Assembly: GCF_003426945.1 (NCBI RefSeq)
Contig: NZ_QURO01000004.1
Span: forward strand, 806,001 to 870,000
Reading direction: 5' to 3'
Origin: Thermus sediminis
GTDB lineage: Bacteria; Deinococcota; Deinococci; Deinococcales; Thermaceae
DNA length: 64,000 bases
In this document: piece by piece, positions 22,570 through 25,135 of the stretch
How the letters are laid out: the number at the start of each line of letters is the position of its first letter
Position numbering within the stretch: the stretch's first letter is position 1
Notes under the pieces: generated by a model
What the model was told of the DNA's origin: nothing
The model's input: only the letters and a program-made list of their open reading frames with translations
Database searches by the model: none
Program-made: the position numbers and the translations under genes

Positions 22570-22928
22570 GCTACAATGGCCCCGAAGGGGGTGGGAAGCT
22601 GAGAGAACCCTTGTGATTCCAAGAGAGGTATTTGAGGCAGTGATTCTCGGGGCGGTTTCGCATGTATTTTCCGGTATTGCCCGTGCATTCTAGGGGTGTA
22701 TTCAAGCAGGTGCATTCTTGGGCCCGCGTGGGAGGCTTTCCTTCCACGTGGCCTAGTGCTTTGTAGGCGGTTCCGCCCTCAGACCCTGGAGGTCTCGCCC
22801 CTGTTGCTCCAGCCCCGCTACCCAGCCGGCACCGGATGTGCTAAGCTGGGTAGTATAAATCTGACCCCATCCAAAATAATGTAATCTCATAAGGTTTTTT
22901 TGCCGTCTCCATACTTATTCTTTCCCTC
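22570..22928. other. Non-coding stretch downstream of the tRNA pair
   Basis: No convincing coding frame exists on either strand in these roughly 360 bases, which are clearly less G+C-rich than the surroundings. Visible structure is a perfect 9-bp inverted repeat, CTACCCAGC (22818-22826) with GCTGGGTAG (22845-22853), followed at once by TATAAA. Two similar copies of GTGCATTCT stand near 22683 and 22710. Being next to tRNA genes, it could be a decayed insertion or hold a small RNA; I cannot tell which. Confidence 0.5.
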
Positions 22929-22957
22929 TTGACACCATTGACCGGTCCCTCTAGAGT
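22929..22957 (+). promoter_or_regulatory. Strong promoter of the short peptide transcript
   Basis: TTGACA (22929-22934) is followed after exactly 17 nt by TAGAGT (22952-22957). The predicted start is near 22964, giving a leader of about 50 nt before the peptide ATG. It is one of the best -35/-10 pairs in the window. Confidence 0.8.
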
Positions 22958-23013
22958 GAAAACCAAGCAAACGGGGCCGACCCCCCGGGAGCGGGAGAAA
23001 AGGAGGGATGAAG

Positions 23014-23103
23014 ATGAAGAAGCTGATCGCTCGTGTGTTGGCTCTTCTCAGCAGCTTGATCGCGCTTGGGCTTGCGGCTGGGGCTTCTGTATTCTGGGAG
23101 TAA
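23014..23103 (+). CDS. 29-residue hydrophobic AgrD-like peptide (small ORF)
   Basis: The ORF encodes 29 residues beginning MKKLIARVLALLSSLIALGL and ending AAGASVFWE. A strong ribosome-binding site AGGAGG lies 7 nt before ATG 23014; a further in-frame ATG at 23008 is too close to that site. It has its own promoter at 22929 and terminator at 23108-23133, so a transcript of about 170 nt carries only this peptide. Lysines, a long hydrophobic helix and a terminal Ala-Ser-aromatic block are the shape of Firmicute cyclic (thio)lactone autoinducer precursors (AgrD-like), with Ser in place of Cys, but no AgrB protease is nearby. A type I toxin-like membrane peptide or a leader peptide are alternatives. 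Codons (GCT, CTT, TTG) are unlike Thermus housekeeping genes. Confidence 0.65.
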   Translation: MKKLIARVLALLSSLIALGLAAGASVFWE

Positions 23104-23107
23104 AGAC

Positions 23108-23133
23108 GGGGCCAGTTTAGCTGGCCCTTTTTT
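23108..23133 (+). terminator. Rho-independent terminator of the peptide transcript
   Basis: The stem GGGCCAG with CTGGCCC around a TTTAG loop is followed by seven T. It lies 4 nt after the peptide stop and separates it from the HD-GYP gene, whose -35 box begins 4 nt later. Confidence 0.92.
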
Positions 23134-23136
23134 CTA

Positions 23137-23165
23137 TTGCGTGAGGGGGAAAGGTTTGCTACACT
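23137..23165 (+). promoter_or_regulatory. Promoter of the HD-GYP gene
   Basis: TTGCGT (23137-23142) and TACACT (23160-23165) are 17 nt apart, and ATG 23175 is 9 nt after the -10 box, so the transcript should be leaderless or nearly so. It starts right behind the peptide terminator. Confidence 0.65.
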
Positions 23166-23174
23166 CGGGCTACC

Positions 23175-24590
23175 ATGGCCCTCAAGCGCTTGGAGCTTCC
23201 TCCCTCCAGGGTACTTTTTTTAGTCCTCTCAGCCTTCCTGGCCTTCTTGGCCCTGGAGGGCTTCTTGCTCTGGGCGTATCGGGATGTCCCCCTCCGCTTG
23301 GGCTTTCTGGAGCTCCTCTTTTGGGGTGGGCTCATGCTTTGGAGCGTGCAGGTCCGGGTGCGCCTTCCCCTAAGCGCCAGCATGAGCCAATTCTTTATCT
23401 TCGCCCTGACCCTAGTCGTTTTAACACCCCCCTGGATAGCCCCTCTCTTGAGTTTTTTCTTTCAATGGAACCGAAAGGTCTGGTATAAAGACCTCTTCAA
23501 TCGCCTCCAGAACGGCCTGGCCACCGCCTTGGCGGCCCTGGCTTGGCACTTCTTCCAGCAGAACCCCGTCTACATGGGCCCCTGGAACCTGTCCGCGGGG
23601 GTGGGCATCGCCGCCGCCGCCTTAGCTTTCTTTGTAGTGAATACCACCTTGGTAACCACCGCCATTCACCTAGCAAACAAAGTTTCCTGGCGCCAAGCAT
23701 GGGGGAAAAACATCAAGTGGCTCGCTCTAAGCTACCTCCTCCTCTCCCCCATTGCCCTCCTCCTAGCCCGGGCCTATGAGACCCCCCTCCTGGGCAACTG
23801 GGGCGGGTGGACGGTGCTCTTCTTCCTCATCCCCCTCTACTACAGCCGCTTCTACTGGGACGAGAAGGTGCGCCTGGAGGAGGCCTACGAGGCCACCTTG
23901 GAAACCCTGATGCACGCCCTCGAGGCCAAGGACCCCCAGACCCGCCTCCACTCCGAGCGCGTGGCCGAGATCGCCCGGGACCTGGCCAAGAAGGTGAAGA
24001 ACGGGGACGAGGCCTACGCCCAGGCCGTCTACCGGGCAGCCCGCCTCCACGACATCGGCAAGATCGCCATCCCTGAGTTCGTCCTGCTGAAGCCCGGCTC
24101 CCTCACCCCCGAGGAGCGCCAGGCCATAGAGAGGCACCCCGAGTTTGGGGCGGAGATGCTGAAGCCCGGGGCCAAGATCGCCTTCGAGCCCCTGGTCTAC
24201 AACGTCGTCCTCCACCACCACGAGCGCTGGGACGGCCGGGGCTACCCCAGGAGGCTCGCCGGGCACGAGATCCCCGAGGAGGCCCGCATCGTGGTCCTGG
24301 CCGACGCCTACGAGGCCATGACCGCAGGCCGTCCCTACCGAAGGGCCAAGACCCCGGAGGAGGCCTTAAGGGAGATGCAGGAGCTTTCCGGCCTCCAGTT
24401 TGACCCCCGCCTGGTGGAGGCCTTCGCTGAGCTTTGGCAGGAAGACCCCATCTGGCGCGACCGGGAGGCCTACCTCAAGGCCAAGGCAAAGAAGGAGGGA
24501 TCCGTATCACGCTTTATCTTGCCGCCGCTCTCTTCGCCCTGGGCCTCGCCCTCGCCCTCGGAGCCCGGCCCAAGGACCTCGGAGGAATAG
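23175..24590 (+). CDS. Membrane-anchored HD-GYP domain protein
   Basis: The 471-residue protein has an N-terminal membrane region of six or so helices (residues about 12-225, for example VLFLVLSAFLAFLALEGFLL and FFLIPLYYSRFYW) and a C-terminal HD-GYP domain. That domain has HSERVAEIARDLAKK, HDIGKIAIPEFVLLKPG, ERHPEFGAEML, HHHERWDGRGYPRRLAG and VLADAYEAMTAGRPYR, so both the HD and GYP motifs are intact. HD-GYP enzymes hydrolyse cyclic di-GMP or related dinucleotides. The N-terminal half looks like a MASE-type sensor domain that could read a membrane or extracellular cue. The gene lies right after a transcript for a short hydrophobic peptide, a candidate ligand. The stop overlaps the next gene's open frame. 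Confidence 0.9.
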   Translation: MALKRLELPPSRVLFLVLSAFLAFLALEGFLLWAYRDVPLRLGFLELLFWGGLMLWSVQVRVRLPLSASMSQFFIFALTLVVLTPPWIAPLLSFFFQWNRKVWYKDLFNRLQNGLATALAALAWHFFQQNPVYMGPWNLSAGVGIAAAALAFFVVNTTLVTTAIHLANKVSWRQAWGKNIKWLALSYLLLSPIALLLARAYETPLLGNWGGWTVLFFLIPLYYSRFYWDEKVRLEEAYEATLETLMHALEAKDPQTRLHSERVAEIARDLAKKVKNGDEAYAQAVYRAARLHDIGKIAIPEFVLLKPGSLTPEERQAIERHPEFGAEMLKPGAKIAFEPLVYNVVLHHHERWDGRGYPRRLAGHEIPEEARIVVLADAYEAMTAGRPYRRAKTPEEALREMQELSGLQFDPRLVEAFAELWQEDPIWRDREAYLKAKAKKEGSVSRFILPPLSSPWASPSPSEPGPRTSEE

Positions 24591-25135
24591 AGCTAAGGGC
24601 GGCCTGGGCGTTTTTGCTGGCGGCCCTCCTGGAGGGCGGCCTGGCCTACGGCACCTACCGGGGCCTTTTCCAGCCCCAATGGGCGGGCCCCTTGGCCAAA
24701 GGGCTGGTCCTCCTCCTGGTGGGCTACGGCCTTTACCAAAACCGCCACCTCAAAAGCCTCCACCTGGTCCTCTTGGGGCTTCTCCTGAACGCCTTGGTCA
24801 TCTTCGCCAACGGGGGGCACATGCCCGTAAGCCTGGCCGCCCTGGAGAGGGCAGGCCTGGGCGAGCTGGAGGACTTCCTGAGGGAACGGAGGGATGCGGT
24901 CCACACCCTCATGGACGAGACCACCCGCCTCCCCTTCCTGGGGGACGTGATCCCCCTGCCTCCCCTGCAGAAGGCCATCAGCCCGGGAGATATTCTCATC
25001 CTCCTCGGCATCATGGGGGTGGTGGTGGAGGGAGCCTTGAGGGCCGGGGGCTTTCGCCTCCCCCTCCGCCTGGCCGCCCTAAGGGTCTTGGGCTACCTCC
25101 TTTTGGTGCTCCTCCTCCTCGCCTGGCGGGGCTAG
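24434..25135 (+). CDS. DUF5317 family membrane protein (start unresolved)
   Basis: The core RITLYLAAALFALGLALAL, VIFANGGHMPVSLAALERAGL, LMDETTRLPFLGDVIPLP and ISPGDILILLGIMGVV matches the DUF5317 family of membrane proteins, with five or six helices and no known function. The coordinates give the open frame from TTG 24434, which would overlap the HD-GYP gene by 157 nt. Family proteins begin near RITLYLA, where this sequence has GGAGG (24494-24498) but only ATC codons at 24500 and 24506, so either a rare ATC start, a TTG far upstream, or a base error applies. Overlap with the HD-GYP gene implies co-expression. Confidence 0.78.
   Translation: MAGRPHLARPGGLPQGQGKEGGIRITLYLAAALFALGLALALGARPKDLGGIELRAAWAFLLAALLEGGLAYGTYRGLFQPQWAGPLAKGLVLLLVGYGLYQNRHLKSLHLVLLGLLLNALVIFANGGHMPVSLAALERAGLGELEDFLRERRDAVHTLMDETTRLPFLGDVIPLPPLQKAISPGDILILLGIMGVVVEGALRAGGFRLPLRLAALRVLGYLLLVLLLLAWRG

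Follow-up and report, generated by a model that had tools for sequence, protein, structure and literature searches.

In the Rap and arbitrium systems, precursors of the Phr and AimP type yield pheromones that are C-terminal penta- or hexapeptides, and CydX, KdpF and AcrZ are small regulatory membrane subunits. What most membrane HD-GYP and MASE proteins respond to is not known, and a dedicated peptide gene that adjoins such an enzyme makes the input testable. We know of no earlier peptide signal wired straight to c-di-GMP breakdown. Our literature search, with most subscription journals outside its scope, returned nothing relevant on MASE9, on DUF5317, or on HD-GYP proteins together with a peptide pheromone or small membrane protein.

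Cassette layout in Thermus sediminis

We analysed a 64,000-nucleotide stretch of Thermus sediminis DNA (contig NZ_QURO01000004.1, positions 806,001 to 870,000; hereafter the window), in which a short peptide unit is flanked by a tRNA-Asp/tRNA-Phe pair on one side and by a membrane HD-GYP gene on the other (Table 1). The coordinates given in an earlier note on this DNA all hold, and the near-consensus promoter, strong ribosome-binding site and terminator that it had assigned to the peptide gene were recovered. From the positions of the promoter and of the terminator stem, a transcript of about 170 nt is expected. The promoter scan found two such sites in 2.5 kb against 0.3 expected. The -35 and -10 boxes of the peptide gene are kept across the Thermus alignment as TTGACA...TAAAGT, TTGAC-like boxes are also present at most other Thermales loci, and the ribosome-binding site is kept 5' of the peptide ORF in nearly all relatives. 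The same note had given the HD-GYP gene its own promoter behind the terminator, a claim that stood in part: an extended -10 element was found by direct reading, and TGCTA is kept at its place in most Thermus according to the alignment, but the promoter scan did not list the site. We regard this element as the probable promoter of the HD-GYP gene.

Table 1. Features of the peptide/HD-GYP/DUF5317 cassette, in window coordinates.
Feature	Position	Strand	Remarks
Promoter of the peptide gene, TTGACA-17-TAGAGT	22929..22957	+	Consensus matches 10/12
Ribosome-binding site AAGGAGGG	23000..23007	+	Direct reading
Peptide gene MKMKKLIARVLALLSSLIALGLAAGASVFWE	23008..23103	+	31 aa, or 29 aa if translation begins at the second ATG (23014)
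C-terminal tail SVFWE after the A-G-A site	23086..23100	+	Variable tail with Trp invariant in Thermus
Intrinsic terminator between the peptide and HD-GYP genes	23108..23135	+	Stem (23108-23128) of 9 bp and T-run
Extended -10 TGCTACACT (TGnTACACT), probable promoter	23157..23165	+	Direct reading; absent from the promoter-scan listing
Predicted HD-GYP phosphodiesterase gene with MASE9 membrane domain	23175..24590	+	471 aa; Pfam MASE9, HD_5
MASE9 sensor domain, residues 12-227	23208..23855	+	Pfam E 3e-26; model fold possibly ECF S-component-like
HD-GYP catalytic domain, residues 244-413	23904..24413	+	Pfam HD_5 E 5e-41
DUF5317 membrane protein, third cassette gene	24434..25135	+	PF17248 E 6e-38; start codon uncertain

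Two further elements were observed upstream. Eight ATT[C/T/G] motifs (GTATTC/GCATTC-like, spacing roughly 10-23 bp) occupy window positions 22616-22720, between the tRNA-Phe terminator and the peptide promoter; similar repeats occur in most other Thermus, and they could form a multi-site operator. An inverted repeat (CTACCCAGC...GCTGGGTAG, 22818-22853) lies 5' of the peptide promoter and is kept in many Thermus species.

The window HD-GYP protein scored 92.9 bits against PF20972 (MASE9; cut-off 24.3). It carries the HDIGK and HHHERWDGRGYP motifs, which correspond to the HD and HHExWDGxGYP metal/substrate motifs, and the 19 invariant columns in an alignment of 56 receptors include the HD, HHE and G-x-P motifs. 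The membrane protein thus has the intact HD-GYP domain previously reported for it, and is predicted to be a c-di-GMP phosphodiesterase. In the structure model (pLDDT 90.8), the catalytic domain matched the HD-GYP protein PA4781 (Foldseek E 6e-10). The modelled membrane domain shows a possible resemblance to the S-component of an ECF transporter: Foldseek aligned it with other S-components and with TmRibU, at a probability of 1.00 and a TM-score (by target) of up to 0.65, but with E 0.15 and 12% identity. Since S-components bind small, often aromatic ligands from outside, an aromatic peptide tail is a plausible ligand of this receptor.

The frame of the DUF5317 gene overlaps the 3' end of the HD-GYP gene, with no obvious ATG or GTG near a ribosome-binding site. 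Its product was modelled at pLDDT 94.9, and the fold search found no match to the model among PDB structures.

Conservation and distribution of the peptide gene and the paired HD-GYP gene

A DNA search of the genus matched the region in 26 of the 27 Thermus genomes, and the peptide ORF was intact across the Thermus species. The peptide profile (E < 1e-5) detected the peptide in 60 of 111 Deinococcota genomes from two families (26 Thermus and 34 others). In 25 Thermus sequences pN/pS was 0.36 overall, i.e. purifying selection; residues 1-24 (numbered on the 29-aa form) gave 0.26 and the five C-terminal residues 0.58, and the tail Trp was fixed in all 25. The hydrophobic part was 88% identical among 13 Thermus species; for the amidase encoded nearby, identity was 61% in the signal peptide and 83% at the start of the mature protein. 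The helix itself is therefore under sequence-specific constraint. The earlier note had proposed to look for codon conservation, and for the same small ORF before HD-GYP genes in other Thermus genomes, and had reasoned that an unconserved ORF or a pair missing from relatives would point to an RNA or a chance ORF. Codons and pair (see below) both proved conserved and, judged by this conservation, the peptide ORF is a real gene.

Neither the window peptide nor the homologous peptides tested matched a Pfam or NCBIfam family, and one homologue matched Phr_nterm at chance level (E 0.09). Beyond the two tRNAs, Rfam gave no match at the gathering threshold and chance-level matches only at a relaxed threshold. 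Hairpins occur in the 5' UTR in several genera, and the Thermus 5' UTR folds no better than shuffles (z 0.3). An RNA element was rejected for the peptide unit on the missing Rfam match and the non-significant Thermus hairpin.

The peptide is built of a basic start, a hydrophobic stretch of 15-18 residues, small residues around Gly and a short tail, with the Thermales consensus MKKxxAKxxxLxxSLVALGxAAGA-xxx-W-x. A positive n-region, a hydrophobic h-region and small -3/-1 residues were all present by direct reading, and a permissive script found the -3/-1 small-residue rule for signal peptidase I satisfied by 72 of 72 peptides. In appearance the peptide is a short helix of the membrane or signal type, closed by an A-G-A/G-G-A site that signal peptidase could cut and then by only 4-6 residues, which usually include Trp; we infer that the tail SVFWE is a candidate released pentapeptide in T. 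sediminis. Conservation is highest in the helix motif LxALxLAAGA / LAGGA, whereas the tail is variable except for its fixed aromatic. Tail distances correlated with receptor-domain distances when the catalytic domain was controlled for (partial r 0.26, permutation p 0.004, n 27), a weak signal from a partial Mantel test, which is liberal, and we take it as suggestive only. Helix distances showed no correlation with receptor-domain distances (p 0.21).

The peptide had originally been read as an AgrD-like precursor of a cyclic lactone, and this reading had to be abandoned: we found no conserved ring residue, no charged C-terminal leader and no AgrB. In particular, the position presumed to hold the ring Ser is occupied by S, T or G among the Thermus peptides, relatives have S, T, G, D, E, H or N there, and in the Thermales only one or two residues follow the aromatic, with the acidic C-terminal leader absent. 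The lack of an AgrB-type protease, already remarked on for this neighbourhood, extended to the genus, with PF04647 in 0 of the 27 Thermus genomes searched.

The same membrane HD-GYP gene lies directly 3' of the peptide gene at 39 of the 40 fetched Thermales loci, and the fortieth (L067) ends at its contig. The distance from the peptide stop to the HD-GYP start was 20-122 bp wherever the automatically called start falls behind the stop, and the genes further 5' of the peptide change between genera. The pairing is genuine and conserved. MASE9 was detected in 60 of the 111 Deinococcota genomes, 58 of which also had the peptide. Two genomes had the peptide without MASE9, and in both the contig ends there (G043, G069). 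Another two had MASE9 without the peptide: G082, with a distant 1066-aa frame, and G018, in which a single deletion removed the promoter and the peptide along with the first quarter of the receptor. Two MASE9-like HD-GYP genes (L169 and L192) had no peptide. The co-occurrence of peptide and MASE9 follows phylogeny, and gene order, the G018 deletion and the second cassettes described below weigh more. Two individual cases were also recorded: in one genome (G026, L081) the HD-GYP gene is broken by an insert of about 0.84 kb and the peptide in front is intact, and another (G065) has the pair in two copies on different contigs (L133 and L098) with identical peptide sequence.

Second cassettes were found in two Thermus genomes, G008 and G018, each with a MASE9 HD-GYP gene preceded by its own divergent peptide (VNRQVFRSLVWALGLVAMAVAAGGGWVW and MKRLTLISQSLIWALALVGLAVAAGGGWVW, respectively) and followed by a DUF5317-type gene, recognised in G018 by PF17248 (E 3e-14) and assigned in G008 by sequence reading. 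Genes for ParB, a PD-(D/E)XK exonuclease, a type IV secretion (T4SS) coupling protein and a VirB4-like ATPase lie within about 25 kb of the G008 copy; by this gene content, the surrounding DNA is a conjugative-type element. A phage origin of the second copies was rejected, given these T4SS and ParB neighbours in G008; when phage and viral-contig collections were searched, essentially nothing but the HD-GYP domain was matched. In the G018 second cassette, an IS605-type TnpB gene (L130:2185-3438) is inserted between peptide and receptor.

When GTDB contigs were scanned with the receptor alignment, MASE9-like HD-GYP genes of Bacillota came up that have a small hydrophobic ORF in front. We used DUF5317 as a marker, which was above cut-off in 115 of 398 sampled Bacillota genomes, and fetched sixty Bacillota loci. 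Nearly every fetched locus with a membrane HD-GYP gene had a short peptide, at a median distance of 47.5 bp. These peptides are 24-35 aa long (…LLALxALVLAGGA-NFxWG), end in LAGGA plus usually 4-6 residues (e.g. MKFNATLVKILLALMALVLAGGANFKLG), and precede a homologous HD-GYP gene that usually has DUF5317 downstream. The receptors are 26-33% identical to the window protein and were assigned by alignment; the one tested (L147) falls below the cut-off of the Pfam MASE9 model. A peptide profile built from Thermales only recovered 35 of 52 Bacillota loci at E<1 and none of 71 control HD-GYP genes. A profile trained on half of the Bacillota peptides recovered 14 of 18 held-out loci at E<0.01, again with none of the 71 controls, although some held-out peptides closely resemble training ones. 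Four loci were missed: L285 and L287 encode HD proteins without a membrane domain, L303 is the second of two tandem receptors, and L305 had a wrong ORF call, with a peptide of this type elsewhere in the stretch. DUF5317 was rejected as an obligatory peptide partner, because 14 of the 60 DUF5317 loci had no adjoining HD-GYP gene and none of these 14 had a peptide of this type. One metagenome-assembled genome (MAG; L145) has the peptide/HD-GYP locus and no DUF5317 match.

The cassette is also present in a RefSeq record of a Natranaerobius plasmid, with the peptide unannotated; a tblastn search of plasmids with one very short Bacillota peptide gave no match. Judging by these profile and alignment matches, the pair is no Thermus peculiarity: it reaches Bacillota and mobile DNA, with DUF5317 as the usual third gene.

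Two observations concern the surroundings and outer range of the pair. A protein of about 215-225 aa (SAKI..GEI.EIHVLA..PKQIVRDIES) often precedes the Bacillota cassette (L147:1133-1810, L327:1979-2620, L335:1325-1990), with only weak Pfam resemblance to LeuA_dimer and Spore_II_R. In Nonomuraea (Actinomycetota), a small hydrophobic ORF ending in GVSWT (L336:2150-2287) lies about 18 bp upstream of a MASE9-like HD-GYP gene and is possibly a more distant version of the pair.

Candidate roles of the peptide

On balance, we favour the view that the peptide is a dedicated functional partner of the MASE9-type HD-GYP phosphodiesterase, and consider this rather probable. Release of the tail as a free signal is a more tentative proposition, short of probable. 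As its motifs suggest, the peptide would be inserted by the Sec machinery so that the Lys-rich end stays cytoplasmic and the C-terminus faces outward, and either the receptor or a processing protein would recognise the conserved helix. The aromatic tail (S-V-F-W-E here) would probably be freed by signal peptidase at A-G-A and presented to the outward side of the S-component-like membrane domain, thereby altering c-di-GMP hydrolysis in the cytoplasm; DUF5317 may aid processing or sensing. The likely output in Thermus would be the type IV pilus, because PilF binds c-di-GMP and PilM/PilN-like genes are situated about 3-5 kb downstream; in PilF mutants that no longer bind c-di-GMP, twitching and adhesion fall by about 40% (PMC11731258).

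In its full form, which we put forward with reserve, the proposal is a cross-phylum pheromone system in which a Sec-exported micropeptide releases an aromatic tail of 4-6 residues, the tail binds a sensor of S-component fold and so directly switches a c-di-GMP phosphodiesterase, DUF5317 acts as a dedicated processing or sensing partner, and a conjugative-type element carries the system with its own different peptide.

The partner model has one main alternative form, in which the peptide is never released: as a regulatory subunit made of one helix, it would stabilise or tune the HD-GYP enzyme (or an HD-GYP/DUF5317 complex) in the membrane in the manner of CydX or KdpF. We hold this to be a serious possibility, though short of a probable one. 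The helix is the most conserved part of the peptide and surpasses in conservation the amidase signal peptide encoded at this locus, as one would expect of a subunit embedded in the membrane more than of a disposable signal; its small-residue motif is suited to helix packing, gene order and spacing are constant, and no import or release step is needed. However, the variable tail retains its one Trp, and the site compatible with signal peptidase I stands at the same place in every peptide. Moreover, the separate strong promoter and terminator in the Thermales suggest that peptide is made in excess of enzyme, and a fusion of peptide and receptor was found in 0 of 56 receptors.

Very improbable, by comparison with the partner model, is a leader peptide whose translation would govern how the HD-GYP gene is transcribed or translated, through attenuation at the intervening terminator. 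A terminator-like hairpin does follow the peptide gene, right after its stop codon, at 38 of the 40 Thermales loci, but only 4-50 bp separate the two genes at many Bacillota loci, a spacing on which we reject the attenuator; selection acts on the amino acids of the whole helix, with no run of sensor codons, and the Thermus HD-GYP gene apparently has its own promoter behind the terminator. A type I toxin-like hydrophobic peptide or a chance ORF within a small RNA is hardly credible: the short, Lys-rich, hydrophobic peptide, its strong promoter and terminator and the 5' UTR hairpins of several genera would suit it, but protein-level conservation in two phyla, the fixed pairing with one enzyme, and the Rfam and Thermus folding results argue against it.

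For the dedicated partner that we prefer, either form would matter. As a ligand, it would to our knowledge be the first peptide signal coupled directly to the breakdown of c-di-GMP, both in thermophiles without AgrB and in many Bacillota. As a subunit, it would still represent an overlooked protein family of wide conservation, which the one RefSeq plasmid record that we checked leaves unannotated. The cassette also gives DUF5317, whose predicted fold matches no solved structure, its first functional context. That the pair recurs among relatives of Thermus, in Firmicutes of the clostridia type and on mobile DNA suggests an undescribed kind of peptide-controlled messenger switch.

Comparison with known systems

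The Thermus peptide resembles AgrD in its short gene, Lys-rich hydrophobic N-terminus and adjoining membrane receptor gene. It differs in lacking a conserved Cys or Ser for a (thio)lactone, and its partner is an HD-GYP enzyme instead of a histidine kinase. With Phr- and AimP-type precursors it shares a signal-like hydrophobic N-terminus and a candidate active peptide in the last 4-6 residues, whereas the Thermus-type precursor is shorter, its site is almost terminal, and the partner is a membrane enzyme and not a cytoplasmic RRNPP receptor. CydX, KdpF and AcrZ are similar in size (about 30 aa), in having one helix and in being small partners of a large membrane protein, but the variable C-terminal tail with its fixed aromatic, and the separate transcription unit in the Thermales, set the peptide apart from them. 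Finally, the window protein is, like other MASE-type HD-GYP and GGDEF proteins, an integral membrane sensor fused to a predicted c-di-GMP enzyme, and it differs from them in having a dedicated peptide gene.
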